NCBI RefSeq assembly: GCF_024170505.1 | Contig: NZ_JALJYG010000004.1 | Span: forward strand, 1 to 64,000 | Length of the DNA: 64,000 nucleotides | Source: Methanocalculus alkaliphilus | GTDB lineage: Archaea; Halobacteriota; Methanomicrobia; Methanomicrobiales; Methanocorpusculaceae | Direction of reading: 5' to 3' | In this document: piece after piece, positions 44,225-47,422 of the stretch | How positions within the stretch are numbered: the first letter of the stretch is position 1 | How the letters are laid out: each line of letters starts with the position of its first letter | Translations under genes and position numbers: made by a program | Notes under the pieces: model-generated | What the model was told of the DNA's origin: nothing | Database searches by the model: none | What the model saw: only the letters and a program-made list of their open reading frames with translations

Positions 44225-44683
44225 TTACCGGGAATAGATTGCATGTGTCGATCCAAACTGGATAACACGCCCTGCAAGGGCAGCGGCAAGCTCTTTTTTA
44301 GTCGCACCTGCCTCAAGAGCGAGTGGTGCATCGATTGCATAGACCTTGAAGATATATCGATGCGGAGTGCCGGACTCCGGGCAGGGGCCCCGGTATCCTA
44401 CCTCTCCATAGTCGTTCCTTCCCTGGACAGCACTGACCGGGAAGCTGATGGTTGGTTCTTTCTCCAGTCCCTCCGGCAGTATCCTGACAGGATCGATGTT
44501 CCAGATGATCCAGTGGGTGAAGTTACCACCATCTTTTGAGCTTTCATCCTCCATGATGAGGGCGAGAGCTTTCACGTTCTCGTTAAGGCCCTCGATGTGG
44601 AGAGGAGGGGAGCGGTCTTTGCCGTCACAGGTATAATCGGCTGGAAACTCACGGGTTCCGAAGCGAATTGATAATTTCTCCAT
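44225..44683 (-). CDS. YbhB/YbcL family (PEBP-like) protein
   Basis: The 152-residue protein matches the Raf-kinase-inhibitor/PEBP family. It has the anion-pocket motifs D-G-K-D-R-S-P-P-L near residue 21 and H-W-I-I-W-N-I-D near 58, plus G-Y-R-G-P-C-P-E-S-G near 98 and H-R-Y-I-F-K-V-Y-A. The function of prokaryotic members is not established. A paralogue lies 90 bases upstream on the same strand, a clear tandem duplication. Confidence 0.9.
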   Translation of the reverse strand: MEKLSIRFGTREFPADYTCDGKDRSPPLHIEGLNENVKALALIMEDESSKDGGNFTHWIIWNIDPVRILPEGLEKEPTISFPVSAVQGRNDYGEVGYRGPCPESGTPHRYIFKVYAIDAPLALEAGATKKELAAALAGRVIQFGSTHAIYSR

Positions 44684-44772
44684 TCTTTCACCAGTGAGTC
44701 TGAAAGGTTTCCCTCTATAAAAAACCAGATGGTGGAATGATAGGTTTTTTTGTATCCTGTATTGGGAGTGGA

Positions 44773-45222
44773 TTACCGCTGGCAGACTGCTTTTGTATCA
44801 CCATACTGGATGACATGCCCTTTCATCGCCTCGATGACTGCGTGCTTGTCAGATCCGGGTGGGATATCGAGTTTTGCGTCCAGACCATATACCTTGAAGA
44901 GATACCGGTGTGTCTCTCCGGGTGGTGGTGCGGGTCCGCGATACCCGGTCTCGCCATAATCATTTGTCCCCTGCACTGCATGGATCGGATGATCGATCTC
45001 CGGCATGGGTGGGAGTCCGGCGGGGATGCGATGGTCGGCCGGAATATCCCAGGCAATCCATGCACAGAATGAACAGCCCGGTTCAAAGGGGTTAAATGCA
45101 AAGACTGCAAGATATGGAGATTTGAGGTTGGCAAGGCGGATCAGTGGGGAGAGGTTCTGGCCGTCTCCGGTATGAGTCGGTGGAAACTCCACAAAGCCGA
45201 GGTTGACAGTCAGTTTTTCCAT
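44773..45222 (-). CDS. YbhB/YbcL family (PEBP-like) protein, paralogue
   Basis: This 149-residue PEBP-family protein has H-T-G-D-G-Q-N-L-S-P-L, G-Y-R-G-P-A-P-P-P-G-E-T-H-R-Y-L-F-K-V-Y-G-L-D and a C-terminal A-M-K-G-H-V-I-Q-Y-G-D-T like its neighbour. The pocket His of the H-W-I-I-W motif is replaced by C-A-W-I-A-W. I use ATG 45222, where homology begins; an open frame continues 18 codons further without conservation. The IsrB element begins about 50 bases upstream of this start and may have landed in its promoter region. Confidence 0.88.
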   Translation of the reverse strand: MEKLTVNLGFVEFPPTHTGDGQNLSPLIRLANLKSPYLAVFAFNPFEPGCSFCAWIAWDIPADHRIPAGLPPMPEIDHPIHAVQGTNDYGETGYRGPAPPPGETHRYLFKVYGLDAKLDIPPGSDKHAVIEAMKGHVIQYGDTKAVCQR

Positions 45223-45275
45223 ACGTCGATGTATCGCCTGACAAGATGAAATAACCAGTGGTTTGTAGTCAACCA

Positions 45276-45295
45276 CCCATGACTAAAGTCATGGG
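45276..45295 (+). repeat. Left-end hairpin of the IsrB element
   Basis: CCCATGAC-TAAA-GTCATGGG is a perfect eight-pair stem with a TAAA loop. It shares the core GACTAAAGTC with the hairpin at the other end of the element, as expected for the subterminal hairpins recognised by IS200/IS605 Y1 transposases. A second six-pair hairpin (GTGGTT/AACCAC, 45258-45276) lies immediately before it. Confidence 0.75.
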
Positions 45296-45500
45296 CTTGC
45301 AAACGGCTACGCGAGACTAAACAGTTAGACTAGGAGGCATATAAACCATGCAGCAGCATTACAGGCTACAAGAACGGCAGAATGTTTCTCTAGTTCTGCC
45401 CTCTTCCGGACACGCCGAATCCGACGTATCTTTTCAGATACTACGCCTGTCTTGCCACTCCGAAGAGACATTTCACCCCGGTTTAACCGGGAGGAGGTAA
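45276..45500 (+). ncRNA. Candidate omega RNA scaffold of the IsrB system
   Basis: IscB and IsrB use a guide RNA encoded directly upstream of their gene, with the guide at its 5' end reading into the flanking DNA. This 225-base gap has no credible gene and folds into several hairpins: CCCATGAC/GTCATGGG; GGCAGAA (45376-45382)/TTCTGCC (45394-45400); GTATCT (45426-45431)/AGATAC (45436-45441); and CCCGGT (45477-45482)/ACCGGG (45486-45491) just before the isrB ribosome binding site. The exact ends are not visible. Confidence 0.65.
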
Positions 45501-45506
45501 TACCTC

Positions 45507-46562
45507 ATGCGAATCCCTGTATTAGATATCAACAAAACACCTCTCATGCCGACAACACCGGCAAGAGCCCGGCTCTTACTGAAACAAGGTAAAGCCAGAC
45601 CTTATTGGAACAAACTCGGTATATTCTGCATCATCTTAACCTATCAGGTCAATCCAGACAACCAATTTCTCGTCATCGGTATTGATCCGGGTAGTTCCTT
45701 TGAAGGTTGGTCTATTGTTGGTACACAAGAAACCGTTCTAAACGGCATGTCCGAAACACCAAAGCATGTCAAAAAGGCGGTTGAAACCCGTCGAACCATG
45801 CGAAGATCCAGAAGATACCGTAATTGTTGGAGGCGTCCTGCACGATTCAAAAACCGTCTCAAAAACAGATCCTCCATCCCTCCAAGCACTTTTGCACGAT
45901 GGAACGCCAAACTTCGTATCCTGACGCAAATTCAGAAGATCATCCCTCTGACAGATGTTGTTGTCGAAGATATTGCCGCAGTAACCAAAAAGAACTGCAA
46001 ACGATGGAACTCCAACTTCTCTCCTTTAGAGGTGGGTAAACAATGGTTTTACCGTACAATCCGATCTCTCAACTTTGATCTCCATCTTCGTACCGGATAC
46101 GAAACCAAAGACCTCCGGGATCGATTCAACCTCAGAAAGACCTCTCAGAAGAACAAACCTGTCTTCTCCTCTCATGCAGTAGATGCCTGGGTTATGGCGG
46201 CAGACGTTTCCGGAGCCAAACAACCAACAGAACACGGTTTATTCTATTGGACTCCGATCAGGTTTCATCGTCGTCAACTCCACCGACTCCAACCCGAAAC
46301 AGGAGGGATCAGAAAACCTTATGGGGGAACGATCTCTCTGAACCTAATCCGTGGAACACTAGTCAACCATTTCAAACACGGTTTATCGTACATTGGAGGA
46401 ACCCTGAAAGAACGGCTCTCATTACACCATTTCAGAACAGGTAAACGATTAACCCAATCTGCAAAACCAACAGACTGCACAATCCTGACCAGAATAGCAT
46501 GGAGAACAACACACTATGCCGATACCAGGCAATCGGCATTCCTCTCACGACTAAAGTCGTGA
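45507..46562 (+). CDS. isrB: IsrB-type OMEGA RNA-guided nuclease (HNH-less IscB relative)
   Basis: The 351-residue protein has the IscB/IsrB-specific PLMP motif at residues 12-15, followed by A-R-A-R-L-L-L-K-Q-G-K-A. RuvC-I is V-I-G-I-D-P-G (D60), and the Arg-rich bridge helix is at about 94-117. RuvC-II is V-V-V-E-D (E154) and RuvC-III is S-S-H-A-V-D-A-W (H223, D226). Only about 65 residues separate RuvC-II and RuvC-III, so the HNH nuclease of IscB is absent, as in IsrB, whose length this matches. The C terminus carries Y-G-G-T, G-T-L-V, Y-I-G-G and T-G-K-R-L-T-Q-S-A-K-P. The catalytic set is complete, so RNA-guided nicking of DNA is predicted. GGAGG precedes the ATG. Confidence 0.9.
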   Translation: MRIPVLDINKTPLMPTTPARARLLLKQGKARPYWNKLGIFCIILTYQVNPDNQFLVIGIDPGSSFEGWSIVGTQETVLNGMSETPKHVKKAVETRRTMRRSRRYRNCWRRPARFKNRLKNRSSIPPSTFARWNAKLRILTQIQKIIPLTDVVVEDIAAVTKKNCKRWNSNFSPLEVGKQWFYRTIRSLNFDLHLRTGYETKDLRDRFNLRKTSQKNKPVFSSHAVDAWVMAADVSGAKQPTEHGLFYWTPIRFHRRQLHRLQPETGGIRKPYGGTISLNLIRGTLVNHFKHGLSYIGGTLKERLSLHHFRTGKRLTQSAKPTDCTILTRIAWRTTHYADTRQSAFLSRLKS

Positions 46563-46563
46563 G
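46544..46563 (+). repeat. Right-end hairpin of the IsrB element
   Basis: CTCACGAC-TAAA-GTCGTGAG is a perfect eight-pair stem with the same loop and inner pairs as the left-end hairpin. The isrB stop TGA lies inside it. The DNA just after it (GTTTCCTGCCTGATTC) should contain the cleavage site and the native target-adjacent sequence. Confidence 0.75.
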
Positions 46564-46582
46564 TTTCCTGCCTGATTCGATC

Positions 46583-47422
46583 ATGATGGAGAAAGTACTA
46601 CTCTATACGGATGGTGCCTCACGGGGAAACCCGGGGAACGCAGCACTTGCTTACCTTGTCGTGCAGGGTGAACGGATCATCAGGGAGCATGGTGAACATA
46701 TTGGCCGAATGACCAACAACGAGGCTGAGTACAGGGCGATCATTGAAGGCCTGAAGGCGGCTGCACAGCTTGGCGCAGATGAGGTGGAGGTCTTCTCGGA
46801 CAGCCAGCTCGTCGTCAGGCAGATGAACGGTCAGTATGCCGTCAGGGCACAGGGGCTGATACCGCTTCATCGGAAGGCTCAGGAGGCGGTCAGTATGTTC
46901 TCCTCTGTCCGGTTTGCCTCTGTTCCACGGGAGCACCCCTATATCCGGATGGCAGATCAGCTTGCAAATGAGGCACTGGATGGAAAAAGATCCTCTGTGC
47001 AGGTCGAAGAGAAGAATCTTCCTGGCGTCGGGCTCAGGCCGATTGGCATTGTCCGATCTGCATACAAAGTGCAGGCAGATGCTCCACGGCAGGGGCGAAC
47101 TGAGCCGGTTGAGAGCATTATTGAGATATATCCTGACTATGAAGCCGGTTTGGAGAGTGTCTCCTCATCCCGACACCTGTTCATCCTCTCATGGTTTGAT
47201 CGCAGCAGCCGTGATGTTCTCTCTGTCGAACGCCCCGAATGGCCGAAGCCGCGCGGGGTCTTTGCAACCCGCTCTCCAAACAGGCCAAACCCGATTGGCC
47301 TCTCGCTCGTCGATCTCATCGGCATTGAAGGCCGCGTCCTCCGGGTGAGGGGGCTTGATGCGCTCGACGGTACTCCGGTCCTTGATATCAAGCCCTATTC
47401 AGCCGGTATAGATTCGCCATAA
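46583..47422 (+). CDS. Fusion: RNase HI-like domain + TsaA/TrmO tRNA methyltransferase domain
   Basis: Residues 1-135 are RNase H-like with all catalytic acids: L-Y-T-D-G-A-S-R-G-N-P-G (Asp), N-N-E-A-E-Y-R-A (Glu), V-F-S-D-S-Q-L-V (Asp) and R-M-A-D-Q-L-A-N (Asp). Residues about 150-280 are a TsaA/TrmO domain, with P-I-G-I-V-R-S and P-R-G-V-F-A-T-R-S-P-N-R-P-N-P-I-G-L-S. TrmO methylates t6A37 of tRNA using SAM. Two start ATGs (46583 and 46586) are adjacent; an open frame continues upstream through the IsrB element end but is not conserved. Fusing the two activities is unusual. Confidence 0.88.
   Translation: MMEKVLLYTDGASRGNPGNAALAYLVVQGERIIREHGEHIGRMTNNEAEYRAIIEGLKAAAQLGADEVEVFSDSQLVVRQMNGQYAVRAQGLIPLHRKAQEAVSMFSSVRFASVPREHPYIRMADQLANEALDGKRSSVQVEEKNLPGVGLRPIGIVRSAYKVQADAPRQGRTEPVESIIEIYPDYEAGLESVSSSRHLFILSWFDRSSRDVLSVERPEWPKPRGVFATRSPNRPNPIGLSLVDLIGIEGRVLRVRGLDALDGTPVLDIKPYSAGIDSP

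Follow-up and report, generated by a model that had tools for sequence, protein, structure and literature searches.

An IsrB OMEGA element with exact empty sites in the methanogen Methanocalculus and its apparent siting at host start codons

How does a mobile element that encodes an RNA-guided protein, and whose guide is expected to lie outside its own 5' end, obtain a guide-bearing transcript? This question is raised by a locus in Methanocalculus alkaliphilus, located within a stretch of 64,000 nucleotides (the window; contig NZ_JALJYG010000004.1, positions 1 to 64,000) that contains a gene for a protein of the IscB/IsrB class preceded by a structured RNA and framed by hairpins. We conclude with high confidence that the locus holds an IsrB OMEGA element that is intact and belongs to the IS200/IS605 superfamily, within an explanation that includes proposed guide transcription, nicking, homing and mobilization in trans. 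The least expected result of the analysis is the siting of such elements at the start codons of host genes.

By sequence and predicted fold, the window protein is an IsrB, a member of the OMEGA family of RNA-guided nickases of the Cas9-ancestor type, and not an IscB. Its sole Pfam match is RRXRR (PF14239, 2.7e-41), and no HNH family is detected at E<1, whereas archaeal IscB controls do show HNH; the spacing between E154 and H223 is 69 residues, a gap that the first-pass annotation, made from the sequence alone, had judged too short for an HNH domain. That annotation had also listed, for a protein of 351 amino acids (aa), a PLMP motif, a bridge helix and the residues D60, E154, H223 and D226, all of which were found: the motif occupies residues 12-15, the arginine-rich bridge helix approximately residues 86-105, and the four RuvC residues align with D65, E159, H226 and D229 of DtIsrB from Desulfovirgula thermocuniculi (PDB 8dmb; PMC9581776) and are invariant across 16 aligned relatives. 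DtIsrB, with which the window protein shares the domain order, the lack of HNH and about 32% identity over the structural alignment, is the best match among solved structures (E 1.8e-48), with IscBs far behind (1e-16 or worse), and an AlphaFold2 model of moderate quality (mean pLDDT 73) is also most similar to 8dmb (E 1.2e-28, TM 0.71). The score against the IscB equivalog NCBIfam NF040563 is 123 bits, under the curated cut-off of 175. In a quick tree, the protein groups with DtIsrB and other IsrBs, away from 13 IscBs, with a support of 100; the label 'arch_IsrB' that L121, L123, L127, L128, L131 and L132 carry in this tree is the output of a regular expression that missed HNH, which Pfam detects in L121, the remainder clustering with IscBs. 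Identification as IscB (the HEARO-associated open reading frame, ORF) was rejected given the missing HNH domain, and the Pfam, NCBIfam, solved-structure and predicted-fold comparisons rule out another RuvC family as the best match, so that the original assignment to IsrB stands. Nickase activity is predicted by homology with DtIsrB, which, unlike the window protein, comes from a bacterium.

Upstream of isrB, where a structured RNA had been proposed on first pass, the covariance model of the Rfam HEARO family (RF02033) matches positions 45268-45474 over its full length (E 3e-11). The RNA has a folding z of -4.95, with none of 200 shuffles equally stable, and six archaeal-type relatives (including L007, from a contig labelled Pseudomonadota) yield a structure of 75 pairs in which 97.3% of the cells are paired, compared to 29-43% for slid controls. 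Compensatory change is seen in 22 of the 75 pairs, against a shuffle mean of 11.3 (0 of 500 shuffles reach 22); folding and covariation together exclude chance structure. The order of helices is that of DtIsrB (S1, SL1, SL2, S2, SL3, S3, SL4, SL5, SL6 and SL7, where SL denotes a stem-loop), along with adaptor and nexus pseudoknots that were added by eye after viewing the sequences, with the DtIsrB model as the guide. The two RNAs share the core stems, both pseudoknots and the SL2-SL5 / SL4 arrangement of group B, and with SL3, SL6 and this arrangement, the window RNA resembles subgroup B1 (PMC9581776). The terminal hairpin abuts the Shine-Dalgarno (SD) sequence much as in DtIsrB, and the scaffold is shorter (about 224-239 versus 262 nucleotides (nt)), no SL8 having been found in the window RNA. 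L007 encodes an IsrB fragment 84% identical to the archaeal protein; its short contig is likely a mis-binned methanogen contig.

The limits of the element are set by empty sites. The nearest relative of the host genome, M. chunghsingensis (G003; element-bearing record L004), has an empty allele (L090) that reads ...CAGTGGTTCGTA / ATGACGAAG, the slash marking the insertion point, and the occupied allele in the window reads ...CAGTGGTTTGTA / GTCAAC...GATC / ATGATGGAG. Because the empty sites fix the boundaries at 45268-46582, the element reaches beyond the span of 45270-46570 given initially, which had the right element with matching end hairpins and the wrong ends. The genome-wide count of copies that the same annotation had called for is two; the second copy, overlooked there, is 95% identical in protein. 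For this copy and that of M. chunghsingensis, the empty site in the respective other species is just as clean. All three insertions defined by empty sites lie 5' of ATGA, and two Methanoculleus copies show the same layout. The element is never at the same place in both species, indicating movement or loss since the species split; the copies are intact at three sites in two species, with dN/dS between copies of 0.12-0.16 and dS of 0.13-0.24. As expected of the IS200/IS605 superfamily, the element has subterminal hairpins, inserts at a short motif and causes no target duplication. Kapitonov et al. reportedly described the same for ISC elements, which insert 5' of a tetranucleotide without target duplication; HEARO/IscB loci (RF02033; ISC elements) also resemble the window element in the upstream structured RNA and the IS605-like hairpin ends, and IscB differs in having HNH.

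The ATGA 3' of the insertions fits the NTGA target-adjacent motif (TAM) of DtIsrB, which uses a guide of 20 nt and reads the TAM through R323 and Q326 (PMC9581776); these residues are kept in the window IsrB as R314 and Q317. This conservation and the ATGA are consistent with the predicted RNA-guided nicking of the non-target strand beside the TAM. The putative guide, the 20 nt of host DNA to the left of the element, is preserved together with ATGA in the M. chunghsingensis empty allele (19 of 20 bases). A search of 8 genomes of the genus with up to 3 mismatches found the guide in two places only, the occupied site, where GTCA follows it, and this empty allele, where ATGA does; no further targets were detected within these limits. 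The pattern is what a system of homing or retention, with predicted nicking, should look like.

The ends of the element are not unique to it. Four IS605/IS1341-type TnpB elements of the host genome (L084-L087) have the same ends, hairpins included, in the reverse orientation (83-89% identity over the right end), the tetranucleotide RTGA = TCAY adjoins both kinds of elements, and the TnpB elements differ in their cargo, in facing the opposite way relative to the ends and in a guide expected from the 3' flank. Y1 TnpA is found in 5 of the 8 genus genomes, and its gene in one of them (G006) is preceded by a similar hairpin end. The common ends and tetranucleotide suggest that one transposase family moved both IsrB and TnpB elements; the IsrB element, which is non-autonomous, lacking the Y1 TnpA of autonomous IS200/IS605 members, was likely mobilized in trans. 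Standalone omega RNAs were not found in the genus: four short matches in G006 cover only the first 31-34 nt, of which one belongs to a TnpB end, two to scars with a single hairpin and the fourth to an unresolved end. Remnants in G006 with a single hairpin and both transposon termini (46-47 base pairs (bp); L220, 2125-2170, and L221, 923-969) probably arose when the two end hairpins recombined. One of the TnpB elements (L084; G000:C3, 579-1804) interrupts an enolase gene, and the joined flanks restore an enolase frame of 467 aa; a group I intron (IStron) was considered here and rejected given the lack of an Rfam intron match. Fluoride riboswitches lie upstream of this locus on both strands, so that the interrupted gene may be an accessory, fluoride-responsive enolase.

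Under the explanation that we favor, a host-initiated transcript would take in the guide, from the 20 nt of left flank, and continue through the omega RNA and isrB. The complex of IsrB and omega RNA would recognize the empty allele by the guide match followed by ATGA, and RuvC would nick the non-target strand of that allele, a nick that would favor renewed copying of the element into empty sites once it has been excised. Self-targeting is not expected, because at the occupied site the guide precedes GTCA rather than NTGA. To move, the element would have needed a Y1 transposase that worked in trans on the ends held in common with the local TnpB elements.

The position of the insertions relative to host genes, which the first-pass annotation had not brought up, bears on the first step of this scheme. 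By hand reading, the ATGA next to the window copy is the start codon of a gene with an RNase H/TrmO domain, and those next to L005 and L006 start a biotin-ligase-like gene and a gene of the ornithine/aspartate-carbamoyltransferase family, respectively; at L004, ATGA is the start of a GXGXG-motif gene and also the stop of the preceding gene, and at L002, it is the stop codon of a co-oriented upstream gene. In a census based on longest-ORF calls, made with no gene finder, an automatic classifier (which scored L002 and L006 as 'coding', unlike the hand reading) assigned 61 archaeal and bacterial IsrB elements, the bacterial ones mostly from Poribacteria, to starts (31), stops (3), intergenic regions (15) and coding regions (12); for 4448 control RTGA sites from the same joined flanks, the shares of the first three classes are 2.2%, 0.6% and 14.6% (start versus intergenic: odds ratio 13.5, p 1e-15). 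Of the 33 assemblies, 22 have start sites. At sites outside genes, the downstream gene is nearly always co-oriented (46:2, versus 545:311 in controls; p 3e-7). In a second set, IsrBs on viral contigs, 10 start and 7 stop sites were counted among 37, against about 4% of controls (p 2e-14), under looser settings (a shorter minimum ORF, and RTGR instead of RTGA controls) and with several right ends visibly mis-set. The right-end rule and the classifier were adjusted over several attempts on the same loci, and the figures are those of the last version; because the motif rule for right ends demands RTGR directly after the tail, it accounts in part for how often RTGR is seen in the bacterial set. 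We therefore treat these p-values, which come from no pre-planned test, as strong leads. The putative ends of the archaeal IscB elements L120, L121, L124 and L132 and of the archaeal IsrB L135 likewise appear to lie at an ATGA that starts a co-oriented gene, so that start-codon siting may extend to IscB. No report of this siting was found in the literature searched, which left out the founding OMEGA and ISC papers, where it may be reported.

Since the guide lies 5' of the element and outside it, the transcript that bears it must begin in host DNA, and a position between a leader and a start codon, or at the stop/start overlap of an operon, supplies a host transcript. We propose that host promoters must provide the guide transcript, and further that IsrB elements, and probably those of IscB, are start-codon insertion elements: with an external 5' guide that only a host promoter could program, they would persist between the host leader and ATG(A), the leader becoming the guide and the start codon the TAM, whereas TnpB elements with the same ends, facing the opposite way, would need no such siting. 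We put the chances of this extended proposal at about even. Avoidance of disruption alone fits poorly, because sites between an SD sequence and ATG should be harmful and yet exceed neutral intergenic sites.

The main rival attributes the siting to the transposase, through a landing preference or its mechanism, or else to RNA-guided spread into further SD-spacer-ATGA sequences, with no selection for guide transcription by the host. In its favor, the target RTGA itself looks like a start codon, and an SD-like motif is present within 13 nt upstream in 17 of the 31 start sites. Against it, same-end TnpB elements and scars are at a gene boundary in about 2 of 8 sites, versus 5 of 5 for the hand-read archaeal IsrBs (p 0.016 in a small, hand-counted comparison). 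Moreover, IsrB sites that are intergenic and not at starts are also co-oriented with the next gene (14:1 versus 446:311, p 0.004). On balance, we consider this rival a serious but somewhat doubtful account of the siting.

The broader reading of the locus as a working OMEGA element meets several objections as well. Sequence establishes the protein family, the RNA structure, the boundaries, the target motif and the shared ends, and from these features transcription, nicking, homing and mobilization in trans are predicted; ATGA may be the target of the transposase instead of the IsrB TAM; the omega RNA scores 59.9 bits against HEARO, below the Rfam curated cut-off of 83, as do the other archaeal IsrB loci scanned (51-81 bits); and compared to DtIsrB, the RECL residue R124 is replaced by K119 and N265 by Q262. 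The host genome, a draft of 37 contigs, has no Y1_Tnp match at E<=0.001 anywhere, the element included, so that a hidden Y1 transposase was rejected, the description of the locus as a transposase-free IS605-like element was borne out genome-wide, and the copy may be immobile now. The missing transposase, the presence of only two copies in the genome and the scars of about 46 bp with one hairpin seen in a relative could mark the locus as a passenger in decay, a fossil whose RNA is dead and whose ORF only looks intact; this is quite improbable, given that three copies at separate sites in two species are intact and given the dN/dS and dS values above and the compensatory changes in the omega RNA. 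Placement between a host leader and a start codon would also suit a role of IsrB in RNA-guided control of the downstream host gene, instead of nicking on behalf of the element, yet all RuvC catalytic residues are conserved, the guide at the occupied locus lacks a TAM, and the insertion sites differ between species, making such a role more improbable still.

The element is of a kind already known, as archaeal IscB is common and IsrB has been reported in Borgs. The first-pass annotation was right that an archaeal IsrB is intact here, and its remark that such systems are mostly described from bacteria calls for some qualification. IscB/HEARO is known from archaea and widespread there (PMC9755519), and Borgs of methane-oxidizing archaea have been reported to carry IsrB in multiple copies (PMC12660748); Borgs are extrachromosomal, whereas the element described here resides in a methanogen genome with mapped empty sites. 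Among 393 genomes sampled from the host phylum, 31 have an RRXRR protein match, most of the frames read being HNH-bearing IscBs, and three further archaeal IsrB loci (L135, L137 and L139) were detected. Archaeal IsrBs occupy several positions in the quick tree, where the sister of the Methanocalculus/Methanoculleus group is a bacterial group; this points to multiple transfers, with long branches making the conclusion unsure. Three IMG/VR contigs (L147-L149), possibly of archaeal viruses, encode IsrBs 55-68% identical to the window protein, with HEARO RNA upstream in L147 and L149.

The features of the element are compiled in Table 1. On the minus strand beside it (44225-45276), two neighboring genes resemble paralogues of the phosphatidylethanolamine-binding protein family, which Pfam confirms for the second.

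Table 1. Features of the Methanocalculus IsrB element and its flanks (window coordinates)
Feature	Position	Strand	Details
Whole IsrB element	45268-46582	+	1315 bp, GTCAAC...GATC, without target-site duplication; exact empty site in G003/L090, same ends at two further sites with empty alleles
Predicted 20-nt guide segment GAAATAACCAGTGGTTTGTA	45248-45267	+	Host sequence flanking the element on its 5' side, up to the left end given by empty site L090
Omega RNA (HEARO) scaffold	45268 to ~45491	+	Rfam RF02033, covariation, helix coordinates; 3' end approximate
Left-end hairpin CCCATGACTAAAGTCATGGG, SL1 of the omega RNA	45276-45295	+	6 of 8 pairs covary
Adaptor pseudoknot, 5' side CGGC	45304-45307	+	Pairs with GCCG 45414-45417; 95.8% of cells paired
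Nexus pseudoknot, 5' side UCUCU	45387-45391	+	Pairs with AGAGA 45464-45468; middle pair compensatory in 3 of 6 sequences
Terminal hairpin SL7	45477-45491	+	SD-like sequence of isrB directly 3'; pairs in 6 of 6 sequences
isrB, 351 aa, ATG start	45507-46562	+	PLMP domain, RuvC I-III, bridge helix, no HNH, TAM-interacting C-terminus (R314, Q317)
Right-end hairpin CTCACGACTAAAGTCGTGAG	46544-46563	+	Includes the isrB stop codon; stem covaries in L005 and L006
TAM-like target tetranucleotide ATGA	46583-46586	+	Doubles as the start codon of the RNase H/TrmO-domain gene 46583-47422

IsrB elements are thus documented in methanogen genomes with exact empty sites, which allows the target, the guide and the TAM to be read straight off natural alleles, in a genus that includes cultured members. 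The shared ends present IsrB and TnpB as alternatives for the cargo of a single transposon end system, the two kinds of elements reading the same tetranucleotide from opposite strands. The siting rule, if true, would answer the question of how an OMEGA RNA with a 5' guide is transcribed and would suggest a reason for the likeness of the TAM to a start codon.
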